NCBI GenBank assembly: GCA_026388255.1 | Contig: JAPLKC010000089.1 | Span: 62,001-126,000, forward strand | Length of the DNA: 64,000 bases | Direction of reading: 5' to 3' | DNA from: Pseudomonadota bacterium | Lineage (GTDB): Bacteria > Desulfobacterota > Syntrophorhabdia > Syntrophorhabdales > Syntrophorhabdaceae | In this document: positions 4,594 to 51,329 of the stretch, piece after piece | How the letters are laid out: every line of letters begins with the position of its first letter | Numbering within the stretch: position 1 is the stretch's first letter | Notes under the pieces: model-generated | Databases searched by the model: none | Seen by the model: only the letters and a program-made list of their open reading frames with translations | What the model was told of the DNA's origin: nothing | Position numbers and translations under genes: made by a program

Positions 4594-4682
4594 AGTAAAT
4601 AGTGAATAGTTGATAGTGAACAGTGAATAATAATAATGATGATGGTAGTTAATAGGTTGCGACTATTCACTATCGACTGACG
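4594..4682 (+). repeat. Inverted heptamer array in the leader of ParB-like copy 1
   Basis: The forward arm is five 7-base units (AGTAAAT, AGTGAAT, AGTTGAT, AGTGAAC, AGTGAAT; 4594-4628). The facing arm is in the opposite orientation (ACTATTC, ACTATCG, ACTGACG; 4662-4682). The arms could pair as a leader hairpin in the mRNA. Just downstream the word TCGCTTGACGGG occurs twice, 20 bases apart. Confidence 0.7.
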
Positions 4683-4753
4683 ACGCCTGCTCTCGCTTGA
4701 CGGGAGCTTGTCCTCGCTTGACGGGGGATTCACTGAAATAATAAGGGGGGAAT

Positions 4754-5347
4754 ATGGCAACAAGAAAGACAAGTGTAAATCCTGAGTTTTTGTACATTCC
4801 CGTAGACAAGATTGTAGTATCGGAACAGGTTAGGTCAAACATTAGTACTGAAACAGAATCATTTAAATCTCTCATACAATCGATCAGAAATAAAGGTATC
4901 TTAGAACCACTTATTGTAACAGGACAGGATGACGGGACATATCTACTTATCTGCGGAGAGAGACGTATTGTGGCAGCACGGCAATTGGGATTTGAATCAG
5001 TGCCGGTAAGGGTTATTGAAGCAGGTAAGGAATTAGGTGATACCATAGCCCTTCAACTGACAGAGAACCTACAACGGGAAGACTTAAATCCCATAGATCA
5101 GGCGAAAGGGATTCTTTCATATATTCAGGCAAGACACCCCGATAAGGGGTATGATGTGGACGGGGTTATGAGTGAACTGGTTAGATACACCCGTAAGCCC
5201 GAAACCCTCTCGGAAGAAATCGTTAACACTGTGTTAACGATTTCTGAAATCGCCGGAAAGTCAATAATGACGGTGCATCGCACGATATCACTTTTAAAAC
5301 TTTCTTCAGAAATTCAGGCTGAAATCCGGTCAATGCTTGACTTGTAG
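4754..5347 (+). CDS. ParB/Spo0J-like protein, copy 1 (C-terminally truncated)
   Basis: The 197-residue product begins MATRKTSVNPEF and has the ParB N-terminal (CTP-binding fold) motifs GERRIVAARQLG and ENLQREDLNP. These are followed by the start of a helix-turn-helix (EIAGKSIMTVHRTISLLKL). Compared with copy 2 it loses about 95 C-terminal residues where unit 2 begins. The start has a strong GGGGGG Shine-Dalgarno. There is no ParA gene nearby, so this is an orphan ParB-like protein and not an obvious segregation pair. DNA-binding remains likely, but the truncation may remove dimerisation. Confidence 0.8.
   Translation: MATRKTSVNPEFLYIPVDKIVVSEQVRSNISTETESFKSLIQSIRNKGILEPLIVTGQDDGTYLLICGERRIVAARQLGFESVPVRVIEAGKELGDTIALQLTENLQREDLNPIDQAKGILSYIQARHPDKGYDVDGVMSELVRYTRKPETLSEEIVNTVLTISEIAGKSIMTVHRTISLLKLSSEIQAEIRSMLDL
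5215..5245. promoter_or_regulatory. Perfect odd-symmetric palindrome inside ParB-like copy 1
   Basis: Arms of 15 bases (AGAAATCGTTAACAC and its exact reverse complement) flank a single T at 5230. It sits between the codons of the ParB core and those of the helix-turn-helix. Equivalent palindromes with the same CAC-T-GTG centre but different arms occur in the other three copies or fragments, which argues for a conserved DNA or RNA function. Confidence 0.7.
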
Positions 5348-5447
5348 GTGCATCTAATAATTTTTCATAAAATACATCCCGATCTAAAATGTTCGACACA
5401 AAGGATACAAGGTCGCCGGTATTCCCCGCAGAAAGCTCGGAAACATC

Positions 5448-5476
5448 TTGACACATTGTTTCTATATATCTACAAT
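5448..5476 (+). promoter_or_regulatory. Sigma-70 promoter of ParB-like unit 2
   Basis: TTGACA (5448-5453), a 17-base spacer, TACAAT (5471-5476). Spacing and both hexamers are the same as in unit 1; the spacer differs in its second half. Confidence 0.75.
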
Positions 5477-5505
5477 AAAAAGCACCATCAAGTGAGATTA
5501 AAAGC

Positions 5506-5595
5506 AGTGAATAGTGAATAGTAGATAGTGAATAGAATGGCAACGGTTGGCACTGAATTTTTTAACTATTCACTATATACTGACGACTATTCACT
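5506..5595 (+). repeat. Inverted heptamer array in the leader of ParB-like copy 2
   Basis: The forward arm is AGTGAAT, AGTGAAT, AGTAGAT, AGTGAAT (5506-5533). The facing arm at 5565-5595 is built of ACTATTC-type heptamers. It has the same architecture and position as the array before copy 1. Confidence 0.7.
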
Positions 5596-5677
5596 AAAAT
5601 AATAAAGGGGGTAATTATAGTAACAAAGAAGACGAGTGTAAATCCTGAGTTTTTTATACATTCCCGTAGCAAACATC

Positions 5678-6556
5678 GTGGTGTTGGAACAGGTTCGGTC
5701 AAGCATTAATATTGAAACAGAATCATTTAAATCTCTTATACAGTCAATCAAAGATAAGGGTATTTTAGAACCGCTTATTGTAACCGCACAGGATGACGGG
5801 ACATATATACTCATATGTGGAGAGAGGCGTCTTGTGGCAGCCCGGCAACTTGGATTTGAATCCGTACCAATAAGAATTATTGAAGCAGGCAAAGGATTAG
5901 GTGAGACCATAGCCCTTCAACTGACAGAAAATCTCCAGAGAGAAGACTTGAATCCTATGGATCAGGCAAAGGGGATACTCTCTTTTATTCAGGCAAAACA
6001 TCCCGATAACGGGTACGATGTGAACGGGGTAATGAGCGAGTTGGTGAGCTACAAGAGGAGGCTTGAGGATGTGTCGGCATCTTTTGCATCCACTGTGGAT
6101 GCAATCATGCAAATCTCTGGGAAAGCTTATACATCCTTGTTCCGCACGATTTCACTTTTAAAACTTTCTCCTGAAATTCAGGCATCAATCCAGGCAGGAA
6201 ACCTCCTCGTTTCCCAGGGGTATCTCTTCGCCGCAAACCTCGAATGTCCTGACCTAGAAAACATATTCGATGCTGTCATAAAGACACCGGTAACCAATGC
6301 CACATTGGAAAGGATGCTCACCGCATACAAAGAAGTCAAACCTGACCCGAATAATACAAAACCAGTATCCGTGAAAAAACAGGTGAAAGGCCTTATATCC
6401 ATAAAGACAACCTTTGATAAGGGTCTTGGAACATATATAAGAGAAGACGTTGAAAAATATCTCTATGATCTGCAGGTTTTCTGTGACCATGTACAGCAGC
6501 AGATGCCTAACATCCCATACGGTAAGAAAAGGCCGCGGACAGTGAATAGTGAATAG
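5678..6556 (+). CDS. ParB/Spo0J-like protein, copy 2 (decayed 5' end)
   Basis: From the GTG at 5678 the frame gives 292 residues with GERRLVAARQLG, ENLQREDLNP, a helix-turn-helix near residues 145-175 (FRTISLLKLSPEIQ) and a basic C-terminal domain. Homology to copy 1 extends upstream to 5617. There the expected ATG reads ATA, and a run of six T at 5650-5655, where copy 1 has five, shifts the frame. The natural start is therefore lost, and translation would need the GTG, which removes about 20 residues. The last codons (VNSE-stop) come from the downstream heptamer array. It may be functional with a shorter N-terminus or may be a young pseudogene. Confidence 0.7.
   Translation: MVLEQVRSSINIETESFKSLIQSIKDKGILEPLIVTAQDDGTYILICGERRLVAARQLGFESVPIRIIEAGKGLGETIALQLTENLQREDLNPMDQAKGILSFIQAKHPDNGYDVNGVMSELVSYKRRLEDVSASFASTVDAIMQISGKAYTSLFRTISLLKLSPEIQASIQAGNLLVSQGYLFAANLECPDLENIFDAVIKTPVTNATLERMLTAYKEVKPDPNNTKPVSVKKQVKGLISIKTTFDKGLGTYIREDVEKYLYDLQVFCDHVQQQMPNIPYGKKRPRTVNSE
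6084..6104. promoter_or_regulatory. Odd-symmetric palindrome inside ParB-like copy 2
   Basis: Arms of 10 bases (TTGCATCCAC and its reverse complement) flank T6094. It sits at the same gene position and has the same CAC-T-GTG centre as in copy 1, but the arms differ. Confidence 0.6.
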
Positions 6557-6852
6557 TAGATAGTGAATAGTGAAAAGTTAAAAAAAGGAAATATGAAAAG
6601 GTAGTGAATAGTATATAGTATACGGTTTAATCCCGCTTAATGCGGGACATAGTTGAAGGGATGGGAGAACTTGTGAAGCGGGTAAAACAGTGAATAGTGA
6701 ATAGTTATGGAAGACAAGATAAAGAATTTCAAAGAGTTGAAGAAAGCTGAAGGTATGGATATCCATACCTTCATTAATGAAACCAATAAAAATGAGCACT
6801 GGTTTAATAAAATGCCTTTAACTATTCACTATTCACTAACGACTATTCACTG
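6541..6852 (+). repeat. Heptamer arrays downstream of ParB-like copy 2
   Basis: AGTGAAT-type heptamers occur at 6541-6575, 6603-6623 and 6689-6702. A facing ACTATTC-type arm lies at 6821-6852. The first array supplies the stop codon of the ParB gene. The last two enclose a small reading frame. Confidence 0.7.
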
Positions 6853-46211: not shown

Positions 46212-46239
46212 GGCAAATGGCAAATGGCAAATGGCTAAA
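46212..46239 (+). repeat. Heptamer array GGCAAAT between the DUF72 and ROK genes
   Basis: Three perfect copies of GGCAAAT followed by the variant GGCTAAA, starting one base after the DUF72 stop. It also creates a spurious ATG upstream of the ROK start. Confidence 0.7.
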
Positions 46240-48989: not shown

Positions 48990-51329
48990 ATGAAAACCAT
49001 ACCCGGCAATATTATGAAACCTGCCCGTTACACAGGCATTGAACCAAACAGGATCATGAAAAATCCTGAGGAAGTCTCTGTACGTTTTGCCCTTTGTTAC
49101 CCGGATATATACGAAATTGGGATGTCCTATTACGGATATTTTCTTCTATACGAGCTTGCGAATACCATAGAAAGCGTATGGTGTGAAAGGTGCTTCGCGC
49201 CCTGGTATGACATGGATGATTATATGAAGTCTAAGGACATGCCGTTATGCACTATAGAGTCCGGAACACCGTTGAGTCTGATGGATCTGGTCGGTTTCTC
49301 CCTTTCCTACGAGTTGAATATAACAAATGTGCTCAACATGCTTAAACTCGGCAAAATACCATTAAGATCTGAAGACAGGGAGAAAGGCCCTATTATCATT
49401 GGCGGCGGCCCTCTTATGCTGAACCCGAGACCCTTTGAAAAGTTCTTTGATCTGATTGTTATTGGCGAAGCAGAGGAAACACTGGTTGAAATGCTGAATG
49501 TTTTTAAAAGTTTAAAGGGAGGTAACAGGGCAAACACTATCAGGGAACTGGCAAAGCTCGAAGGCGTCTATTCCCCTTTATATCCGAAAGAATCCGTGAA
49601 AAGGTCATATATCAAAGACCTTGACACCTCATATCACGCGTTAAAACCCCCTATACCCGTGTCCGGAAGCATCCATAACAGGCTGAATGTCGAGATATCG
49701 AGAGGCTGTGGAAACGGTTGCCGCTTCTGTATGGCAGGATTCGGATACAGGCCATACAGGGAAAGATCCTTTGAGAGGATTAAGGAGATCATAGATATCT
49801 CCATAAAAAACACGGGATATGAAGAAATATCCCTGCTTTCATTGAGCTCCGGCGACTACAGCTCCCTGTTTCAAACCATCTCCTATATAAAAGAGCGTCA
49901 CAAAGGGATATCTGTTTCGTTGCCTTCCTTGAAAATAGGCAGCATAAGCGAAGACGAAATCGGAGCAATAGCCGGTATCGCAAGGACCGGGTTTACCTTT
50001 GCCCTTGAATCCGCGTCTCCCGGCATAAGATGTATGATTAATAAAAACATCGATGTTGACGTGCTTTTCAATCAATTACCCCTTCTTAAAAGATGCGGAT
50101 GGAGAAAACTGAAGATGTACCTCATGATAGGCTTCCCCTGGGAAAAGGAAGAAGACATATCGATAATCAAAGAAATTGTCCGGAGATTTGAACAGGCTGG
50201 CATGGATATAAATCTGGCAATTTCTCCCTTTATCCCAAAGCCGCAGACGCCTTTCCAGTGGCTGCCCATGGAAGATGGTGATGTCCTGAGAGAGAAGATG
50301 TCCATGATAAGAATGCTGCTGCGGAAAAAGGGTAAAGCAGTAAAATACAGGGATGTTGCAACAAGCATGCTTGAGGGCATCATCTCAAGAGGCGATGCAT
50401 CACTGTCGCCGCTTTTTGAATACCTTGCAAGCAAAGGCGTAAGACTTGAAGCATGGAGAGAATTTTTTAAACCCGGGATTTACCATGAATGGTTCAATGA
50501 GAATGGAATAGACATGGAGAGGTACCTCGGGAAAAGGGGATTTGACGAACCGCTGCCCTGGGCATTTGTTGATACAGGAGTCGATAAGTCTTTCCTCATT
50601 GAGGAAACAAAAAATGCTGAGCTTGGCAAACTCACTACGGACTGTTATTCAGGCTGCGCAGAATGCGGGATAGGATGTGAAACAGGGGTTAGGGGCCAGG
50701 GACCAGGAGCAAGAGAGCAGAGGCTGGAGGTCGGAATGGAAGAATTGCCCATTGCCCATTGCCCATTGCCCATTAAAACACCCATTCAAACCGGGAAATA
50801 CGAAATACAAAATACGAGATACGGGATTGCAAAGAAATATACCATTCGCTATGGAAAATACGGTAATGCAAGGTATATCGGTCATATTGACGCCATGGAT
50901 ATCCTGCTCCGGGCACTTCGGGTTTCCGGGGTTTGGATAAAAATGCACGGAAAATACCATCCAATGCCGAATATTGCCCTATCCGATGCACTGCCTGTCG
51001 GGATTGAGAGCTTCTGTGAATTGATGGAGATAGAAACAGAGGTCGACACTTTTTCGGATAACAAGGTGTTGATAGAAATGAACAGGATATTGCCCACGGG
51101 TATGAAGATTTTTGAAATTGTTGAGAGTAACCTGAAAGATATGGTAAAAGAATATACATACATTTTAATCTCCGGTGAAAATCAAGAGCTGGAAGAATTA
51201 AAAAAATGGAGAACCAACATCAAAAACGGTTTTTATATTTGGAAGGGCAAGGGGATTAAAACGCTGTGGCAAAAAGGAGTATTCAACAGGATAATAAAAG
51301 TAGAGGATAGGAAGATACATGGGACCTGA
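48990..51329 (+). CDS. Radical SAM protein (TIGR03960-like) fused to DUF2344 domain
   Basis: Residues 1-200 resemble the B12-binding-like N-domain of this family. The radical SAM core begins near residue 238 with RGCGNGCRFCMAGFGYRPY, whose three Cys hold the 4Fe-4S cluster. A Cys patch CYSGCAECGIGC stands near residue 550. After a linker the DUF2344 domain (YTIRYGKYGNARYIGHIDAMD) follows to the end. In many bacteria this fused protein sits next to rng, as here, with the genes overlapping by 11 bases, and a tRNA/rRNA modification role is suspected but unproven. The linker at about 563-612 is encoded by heptamer repeats. Confidence 0.85.
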   Translation: MKTIPGNIMKPARYTGIEPNRIMKNPEEVSVRFALCYPDIYEIGMSYYGYFLLYELANTIESVWCERCFAPWYDMDDYMKSKDMPLCTIESGTPLSLMDLVGFSLSYELNITNVLNMLKLGKIPLRSEDREKGPIIIGGGPLMLNPRPFEKFFDLIVIGEAEETLVEMLNVFKSLKGGNRANTIRELAKLEGVYSPLYPKESVKRSYIKDLDTSYHALKPPIPVSGSIHNRLNVEISRGCGNGCRFCMAGFGYRPYRERSFERIKEIIDISIKNTGYEEISLLSLSSGDYSSLFQTISYIKERHKGISVSLPSLKIGSISEDEIGAIAGIARTGFTFALESASPGIRCMINKNIDVDVLFNQLPLLKRCGWRKLKMYLMIGFPWEKEEDISIIKEIVRRFEQAGMDINLAISPFIPKPQTPFQWLPMEDGDVLREKMSMIRMLLRKKGKAVKYRDVATSMLEGIISRGDASLSPLFEYLASKGVRLEAWREFFKPGIYHEWFNENGIDMERYLGKRGFDEPLPWAFVDTGVDKSFLIEETKNAELGKLTTDCYSGCAECGIGCETGVRGQGPGAREQRLEVGMEELPIAHCPLPIKTPIQTGKYEIQNTRYGIAKKYTIRYGKYGNARYIGHIDAMDILLRALRVSGVWIKMHGKYHPMPNIALSDALPVGIESFCELMEIETEVDTFSDNKVLIEMNRILPTGMKIFEIVESNLKDMVKEYTYILISGENQELEELKKWRTNIKNGFYIWKGKGIKTLWQKGVFNRIIKVEDRKIHGT
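50682..50826 (+). repeat. Three heptamer arrays inside the radical SAM gene
   Basis: GGGGCCA, GGGACCA, GGAGCAA (about 50693-50713); ATTGCCC repeated about four times (50747-50774); GAAATAC, GAAATAC, AAAATAC, GAGATAC (about 50796-50823). Together with spacers they keep the frame and encode a low-complexity linker (PIAHCPLPIKTP, KYEIQNTRYG). Confidence 0.75.

Follow-up and report, generated by a model that had tools for sequence, protein, structure and literature searches.

The gene at 48990-51329 of the window, the whole 64,000-nt stretch of DNA analysed here, raises the question of how tandem repeats with a unit of seven nucleotides came to lie within a reading frame between two conserved domains. 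In a single ORF a region matching NCBIfam TIGR03960 (residues 7-564, 6.7e-162, 540.1 bits, curated cut-off 462.3) is followed by one matching NCBIfam TIGR03936 (residues 616-743, 4e-24, 85.5 bits, curated cut-off 71.9), both matches exceeding their curated cut-offs. Four cysteines at the end of the first region (C552, C556, C559 and C563) are invariant in alignment A1. The linker between TIGR03960 and DUF2344 comprises ∼52 residues, in agreement with the about 50 residues of the original prediction, which also gave the coordinates and reading frame of the linker arrays correctly. In the AlphaFold model (shallow alignment; mean pLDDT 56) residues 551-610 are predicted to be coil and have the lowest confidence (pLDDT 23-28), with structure resuming at residue 615; EELPIAHCPLPIK is an example of the predicted linker peptide. 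The features of the locus are as follows.

48990-51329, + strand: coding sequence of 779 aa, B12-binding radical SAM TIGR03960 fused to TIGR03936/DUF2344 (ORF call and profile matches)
50643-50678, + strand: Cys motif CxxxCxxCGxxC, end of the TIGR03960 part and left boundary of the linker (alignment A1)
50682-50834, + strand: variable linker, residues 565-615 (predicted coil, lowest model confidence)
50684-50725, + strand: weak, degenerate array AGGGGTT-AGGGGCC-AGGGACC-AGGAGCA-AGAGAGC-AGAGGCT, originally described as GGGACCA, score 8 (period-7 scoring)
50744-50774, + strand: ATTGCCC array, 4.4 perfect copies, score 24 (period-7 scoring)
50795-50827, + strand: GAAATAC array, about 4.7 copies with substitutions, score 14 (period-7 scoring)
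50835-51197, + strand: DUF2344, residues 616-736, Pfam 2.3e-22, the frame of which must be kept (profile match)

Period-7 signal was scored as +1 for a match and −2 for a mismatch. The best score among 5000 dinucleotide shuffles of the linker was 10, and 24 shuffles scored at least 8. Of the three heptamer arrays originally proposed, those of ATTGCCC and GAAATAC exceed chance beyond doubt, while the AGGGGTT/GGGACCA-type array, taken alone, is marginal against the shuffles. Periods 3-6, 8-11 and 13 gave no match in the linker, period 14 is a harmonic, and period 12 yielded a single score of 8. As a period of 7 is not a multiple of 3, the signal arose at the DNA level and the linker is repeat-born, as had been proposed. 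Ordinary low-complexity protein evolution was also considered and is rejected, the signal being at lags 7 and 14, which are not multiples of 3.

All three units, in circular form, lack TAA, TAG and TGA, and the arrays are therefore open in every frame at any copy number. This does not support the earlier argument that, because each seven-base step changes the frame, keeping the arrays open needs selection. Ohno and Epplen (PNAS 1983) are said to have proposed base-oligomer repeats as primordial coding sequence, non-triplet units without stops being open in all frames. Their idea is a hypothesis on early genes, whereas here the linker of a present-day protein shows 14-bp shifts that compensate each other (see below).

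Orthologues are present in all 198 relatives searched, and linkers were compared for the nearest ones, the named relatives being Syntrophorhabdus and Syntrophorhabdaceae MAGs. At the level of the order, the linker is readable in 37 Syntrophorhabdales orthologues and contains period-7 arrays in 15 of them. The arrays are confined to this segment, with 27 in 4,884 nt of linker compared with none in the remaining 79,629 nt of the 37 genes. At most one array was found in these linkers for periods 5, 6 and 9-11, and five for period 8. In genus g8 the linkers L012, L015, L017 and L018 have period-8 arrays (CAGAAGAG type) adjoining the heptamers. The linkers of carriers (36-70 aa) are longer than those of non-carriers (31-54 aa; p = 8e-6, relatedness not corrected), and array-free orthologues have short linkers that are unrelated in sequence. 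No orthologue displayed the same linker without a period-7 signal; the signal-free linkers are different sequences. Beyond the order, 45 orthologues belonging to other families of the phylum were compared. In two of them, L051 and L167, from two distant families, the same linker also contains arrays; in this set, 7.5 kb of linker holds three arrays and 90.8 kb elsewhere in the genes holds two.

Arrays have been gained or lost repeatedly, and their units turn over. On a tree built without the linker, four changes of state are needed, at least three of which (gains or losses) are forced by well supported branches. A same-genus orthologue (85% identity) carries AAATCAC/AAATCTC where the window gene has ATTGCCC and GAAATAC; even two species of the same genus thus have different units, and the linkers of other orthologues contain AACCCCG, CACTCAA, AGAGCGG, GACGAAA, AGTTCAG, CCGAACG, ACTATCG and more. 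The linker peptides of sister species are unrelated, and divergence among the linkers of relatives is too great for an empty site to be delimited at single-base precision. The proposal that several repeat families can occupy one spot is borne out, as orthologue linkers take up different families repeatedly, and the observation made on the window gene is real, and stronger as an orthologue-wide pattern than first reported. Each species is represented by one draft assembly, in which single arrays may be misassembled; misassembly is unlikely to explain the pattern, however, since it recurs over many independent assemblies. In a 38th linker (L041, genome G023) arrays lie beside an assembly gap, after which the reading frame, as assembled, is off. 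In L041, L044 and L045 the linker is interrupted by a gap in the assembly or by the end of a contig; repeats or strain variation may be the cause.

Comparison of close pairs revealed copy-number indels of 7n bp between species, each pair comparing one draft assembly per species. L006 and L016 (92% identity) differ by −14 bp and +14 bp, corresponding to two heptamer units each, such that the frame of DUF2344 is kept and the segment between the two indels is translated in different frames, giving SQALILPKTEQS... in one and ASLNPAEGGTIQ... in the other. L015 and L017 (93.5% identity) differ by 21 bp, or three units, and the frame is again kept. Such a pattern is expected if length varies by steps of 7 bp and the frame is all that selection preserves. 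Within single arrays, the 14 units of L013 run from ACTCCGA, ACGCCGA and ACAACGA through CCCCCGA to TCTTCAA, the unit drifting while the phase is kept, and in both L013 and L015 the unit changes along the array with phase and a CRA core persisting. A stop codon occurs in the coding-strand consensus unit of 2 of 27 linker arrays, compared with 39 of 70 intergenic strand readings, although related species do not provide independent arrays. The scarcity of stop-bearing units in the linker relative to intergenic DNA places selection in the choice of unit and orientation and in total length: selection acts on length modulo 3 and against units or orientations that bear a stop, and not at each unit. 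Whole carrier linkers are not open in all frames, off-frame stops being only mildly depleted (0.034 per codon versus 0.049 expected). A common unit motif was also sought; words including CGA, GAA, CGAA and ATTC show enrichment (z about 3-4), yet none is universal.

Period-7 arrays extend well beyond the gene. In 594 kb of its own genome 23 were found, compared with 0-3 for each of periods 5, 6 and 8-10; lowering the threshold raises the count to 45, of which 21 fall outside long ORFs, in a portion that makes up about 11% of the sequence. Array density is 13-409 per Mb in 11 sampled genomes that carry linker arrays; of 7 non-carrier genomes sampled, 6 have none and the exception, G015, has 50 per Mb (small samples in both groups). 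The state of the linker therefore follows the genome-wide load. Genic arrays occur in N-terminal or signal regions (FlgI, FlgH, FlgA and a Memo-AMMECR1 protein, and in the same-genus genome G001 also Lnt), in a TonB spacer and in an O-antigen ligase; a pilin-like protein has one preceding its N-methylation motif, and G001 has an array inside a pseudouridine synthase domain. In two syntenic blocks outside the linker, the corresponding position in G001 is occupied by a decayed array, indicating that arrays can be old and decay after birth. A Glycosyltransferase 2 gene 1.7 kb past the end of the window (G000 C89:127712-128461, minus strand) contains an array of heptamers (SSRFTVHSSHFT) within its Pfam domain, where G001 has a decayed array. 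Unit turnover was also observed outside genes, an orthologous intergenic site having GGCAAAT repeats in the window (46212-46235) and AGTGAAC/AGTGAAT in G001 (C34:78226-78245). The window further contains a 93-bp tandem repeat (628-888; 2.8 copies, 83%) whose translation resembles HEAT-type repeats.

Two candidate causes of heptamer richness were rejected. None of the 39 genomes of the family (G000-G038) has MutS (PF01624) or MutL (PF01119), and MutS is also absent from seven other genomes of the order (G039-G045), while it is present in 95 of 102 other genomes of the phylum that were searched; judged from gene content, mismatch repair has probably been lost across the order. This loss does not discriminate, however, because heptamer-rich and heptamer-poor genomes alike lack both proteins; nor are periods 5-6 expanded. 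Polymerases of the DinB/UmuC type (PF00817) are likewise present in both rich and poor groups.

The pattern in the linker probably results from heptanucleotide repeats that arise, slip and decay in situ, within a disordered linker, and are filtered by selection for frame and against stops. The segment joining the radical SAM region to DUF2344 would be a disordered spacer tolerant of changes in length. In genomes with a high heptanucleotide load, repeats would arise in it again and again through local duplication, grow and shrink in 7-bp steps by replication slippage or short-range recombination, drift through point mutation and be replaced by other units. Two filters would then act: the reading frame must be free of stop codons, and the overall length must leave DUF2344 in frame, through net changes of 0 or 21 bp or through compensating shifts. 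Length and frame would be constrained, and the sequence of residues little or not at all. We infer that slippage is the mechanism, and that the peptide has no function of its own. The original prediction spoke instead of invasion. On such a reading, arrays would be moved or copied from other loci into genes by mobile or gene-conversion-like dispersal, and the linker would be just a tolerant target. AGTGAAT behaves in a manner consistent with this proposal: it is one unit arrayed at many loci, its dimers occupying 35 positions on both strands at about 30 loci of the genome, and AGTGAAT arrays in both orientations flank two tandem, duplicated genes that are ParB-like by sequence (window 4594-6838), similar ParB-like sequence with arrays recurring in contig C34 of G001. 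The ATTGCCC dimer also has relatives with one mismatch at three other sites, and 41 matches within two mismatches versus 16 for a reversed-pattern control. Exact dimers of ATTGCCC or GAAATAC, however, occur nowhere in the 3.83-Mb genome outside the linker, which favours birth and turnover in place, and close pairs differ in place by steps of 7n bp. Dispersal into the linker is therefore unlikely.

A function for the linker peptide, for example as a charged flexible spacer in which heptamers are retained for length or composition, would be consistent with the greater length of carrier linkers and with the persistence of arrays across many species. It is difficult to reconcile with the unrelated peptides of sister species, with the middle of the L006/L016 linker being read in different frames, and with the many orthologues in which 31-42 residues suffice, making this explanation very improbable. 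It is more improbable still that the locus is a phase-variable contingency locus in which copy number switches DUF2344 on and off: although a change of a single unit would shift the frame, given a unit length that is not a multiple of 3, the full-length matches within the bacterial family are all open, with no internal stop, and the length changes observed are frame-neutral. Slippage alone does not explain why the unit is 7 rather than 5, 6, 8 or 9 nucleotides, the dispersal of AGTGAAT at about 30 loci, or the change of unit with phase and CRA core kept in L013 and L015. A dedicated process with a 7-nt register, rewriting heptamers such that the unit changes but phase and an NNNNCRA core are kept (L013, L015 and L006), and generating new protein linkers and loops genome-wide, is improbable.

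Birth and turnover of heptamers in situ can be set against known repeat systems. Heptanucleotide repeats are the commonest class of long simple sequence repeats (SSRs) in many bacteria, and polymerase slippage has been proposed as their origin (Mrazek et al. 2007, as cited in PMC4679880 and PMC4692102). The linker arrays resemble these repeats (LSSR) in being tandem 7-nt units beyond chance and over-represented above other periods, but differ from them in that many unrelated units occur per genome and at one orthologous coding site, turning over among relatives. The TAACTGA repeats of Beggiatoaceae and cyanobacteria are mostly intergenic, with some in ORFs in the stop-free orientation, and show 7-nt indels between strains, tolerance between protein modules having been suggested (MacGregor 2015, PMC4679880). 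The present system shares these features, namely mostly intergenic heptamers, some of them stop-free inside ORFs, and indels in 7-nt steps; TAACTGA, however, is one dominant unit, and in that system no orthologous linker is repeatedly occupied by different units (PMC4679880). Dispersed heptamer families, some of them intragenic, are GGGAATC in Xanthomonas and GGGGA(T/C)T in Nostoc (PMC4692102), and GGACCGG elements in Geobacter metallireducens, which has a second heptamer class too, are both intergenic and intragenic (PMC2700814). Heptamer repeats that are in part intragenic are common to these families and the present genomes, but in Xanthomonas, Nostoc and Geobacter one G-rich unit family occupies many loci and a regulatory role has been proposed, unlike the units in the linker (PMC4692102, PMC2700814). 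In the open-access literature searched, no description was found of one orthologous linker refilled by different heptamers, and none of Syntrophorhabdus with tandem repeats. Heptanucleotide SSRs are thus already known, while the repeated replacement of units at a single orthologous coding site, with compensation of the frame, appears to be new.

The orthologues constitute a natural series of about 40 in which sequence derived from repeats has again and again taken the place of one protein segment between conserved flanking domains, and the series can be used to watch tandem repeats turn into protein. It makes two questions testable from sequence alone: why 7 nt is favoured as a repeat unit in bacteria, and how non-triplet repeats become protein while the frame survives changes in copy number.
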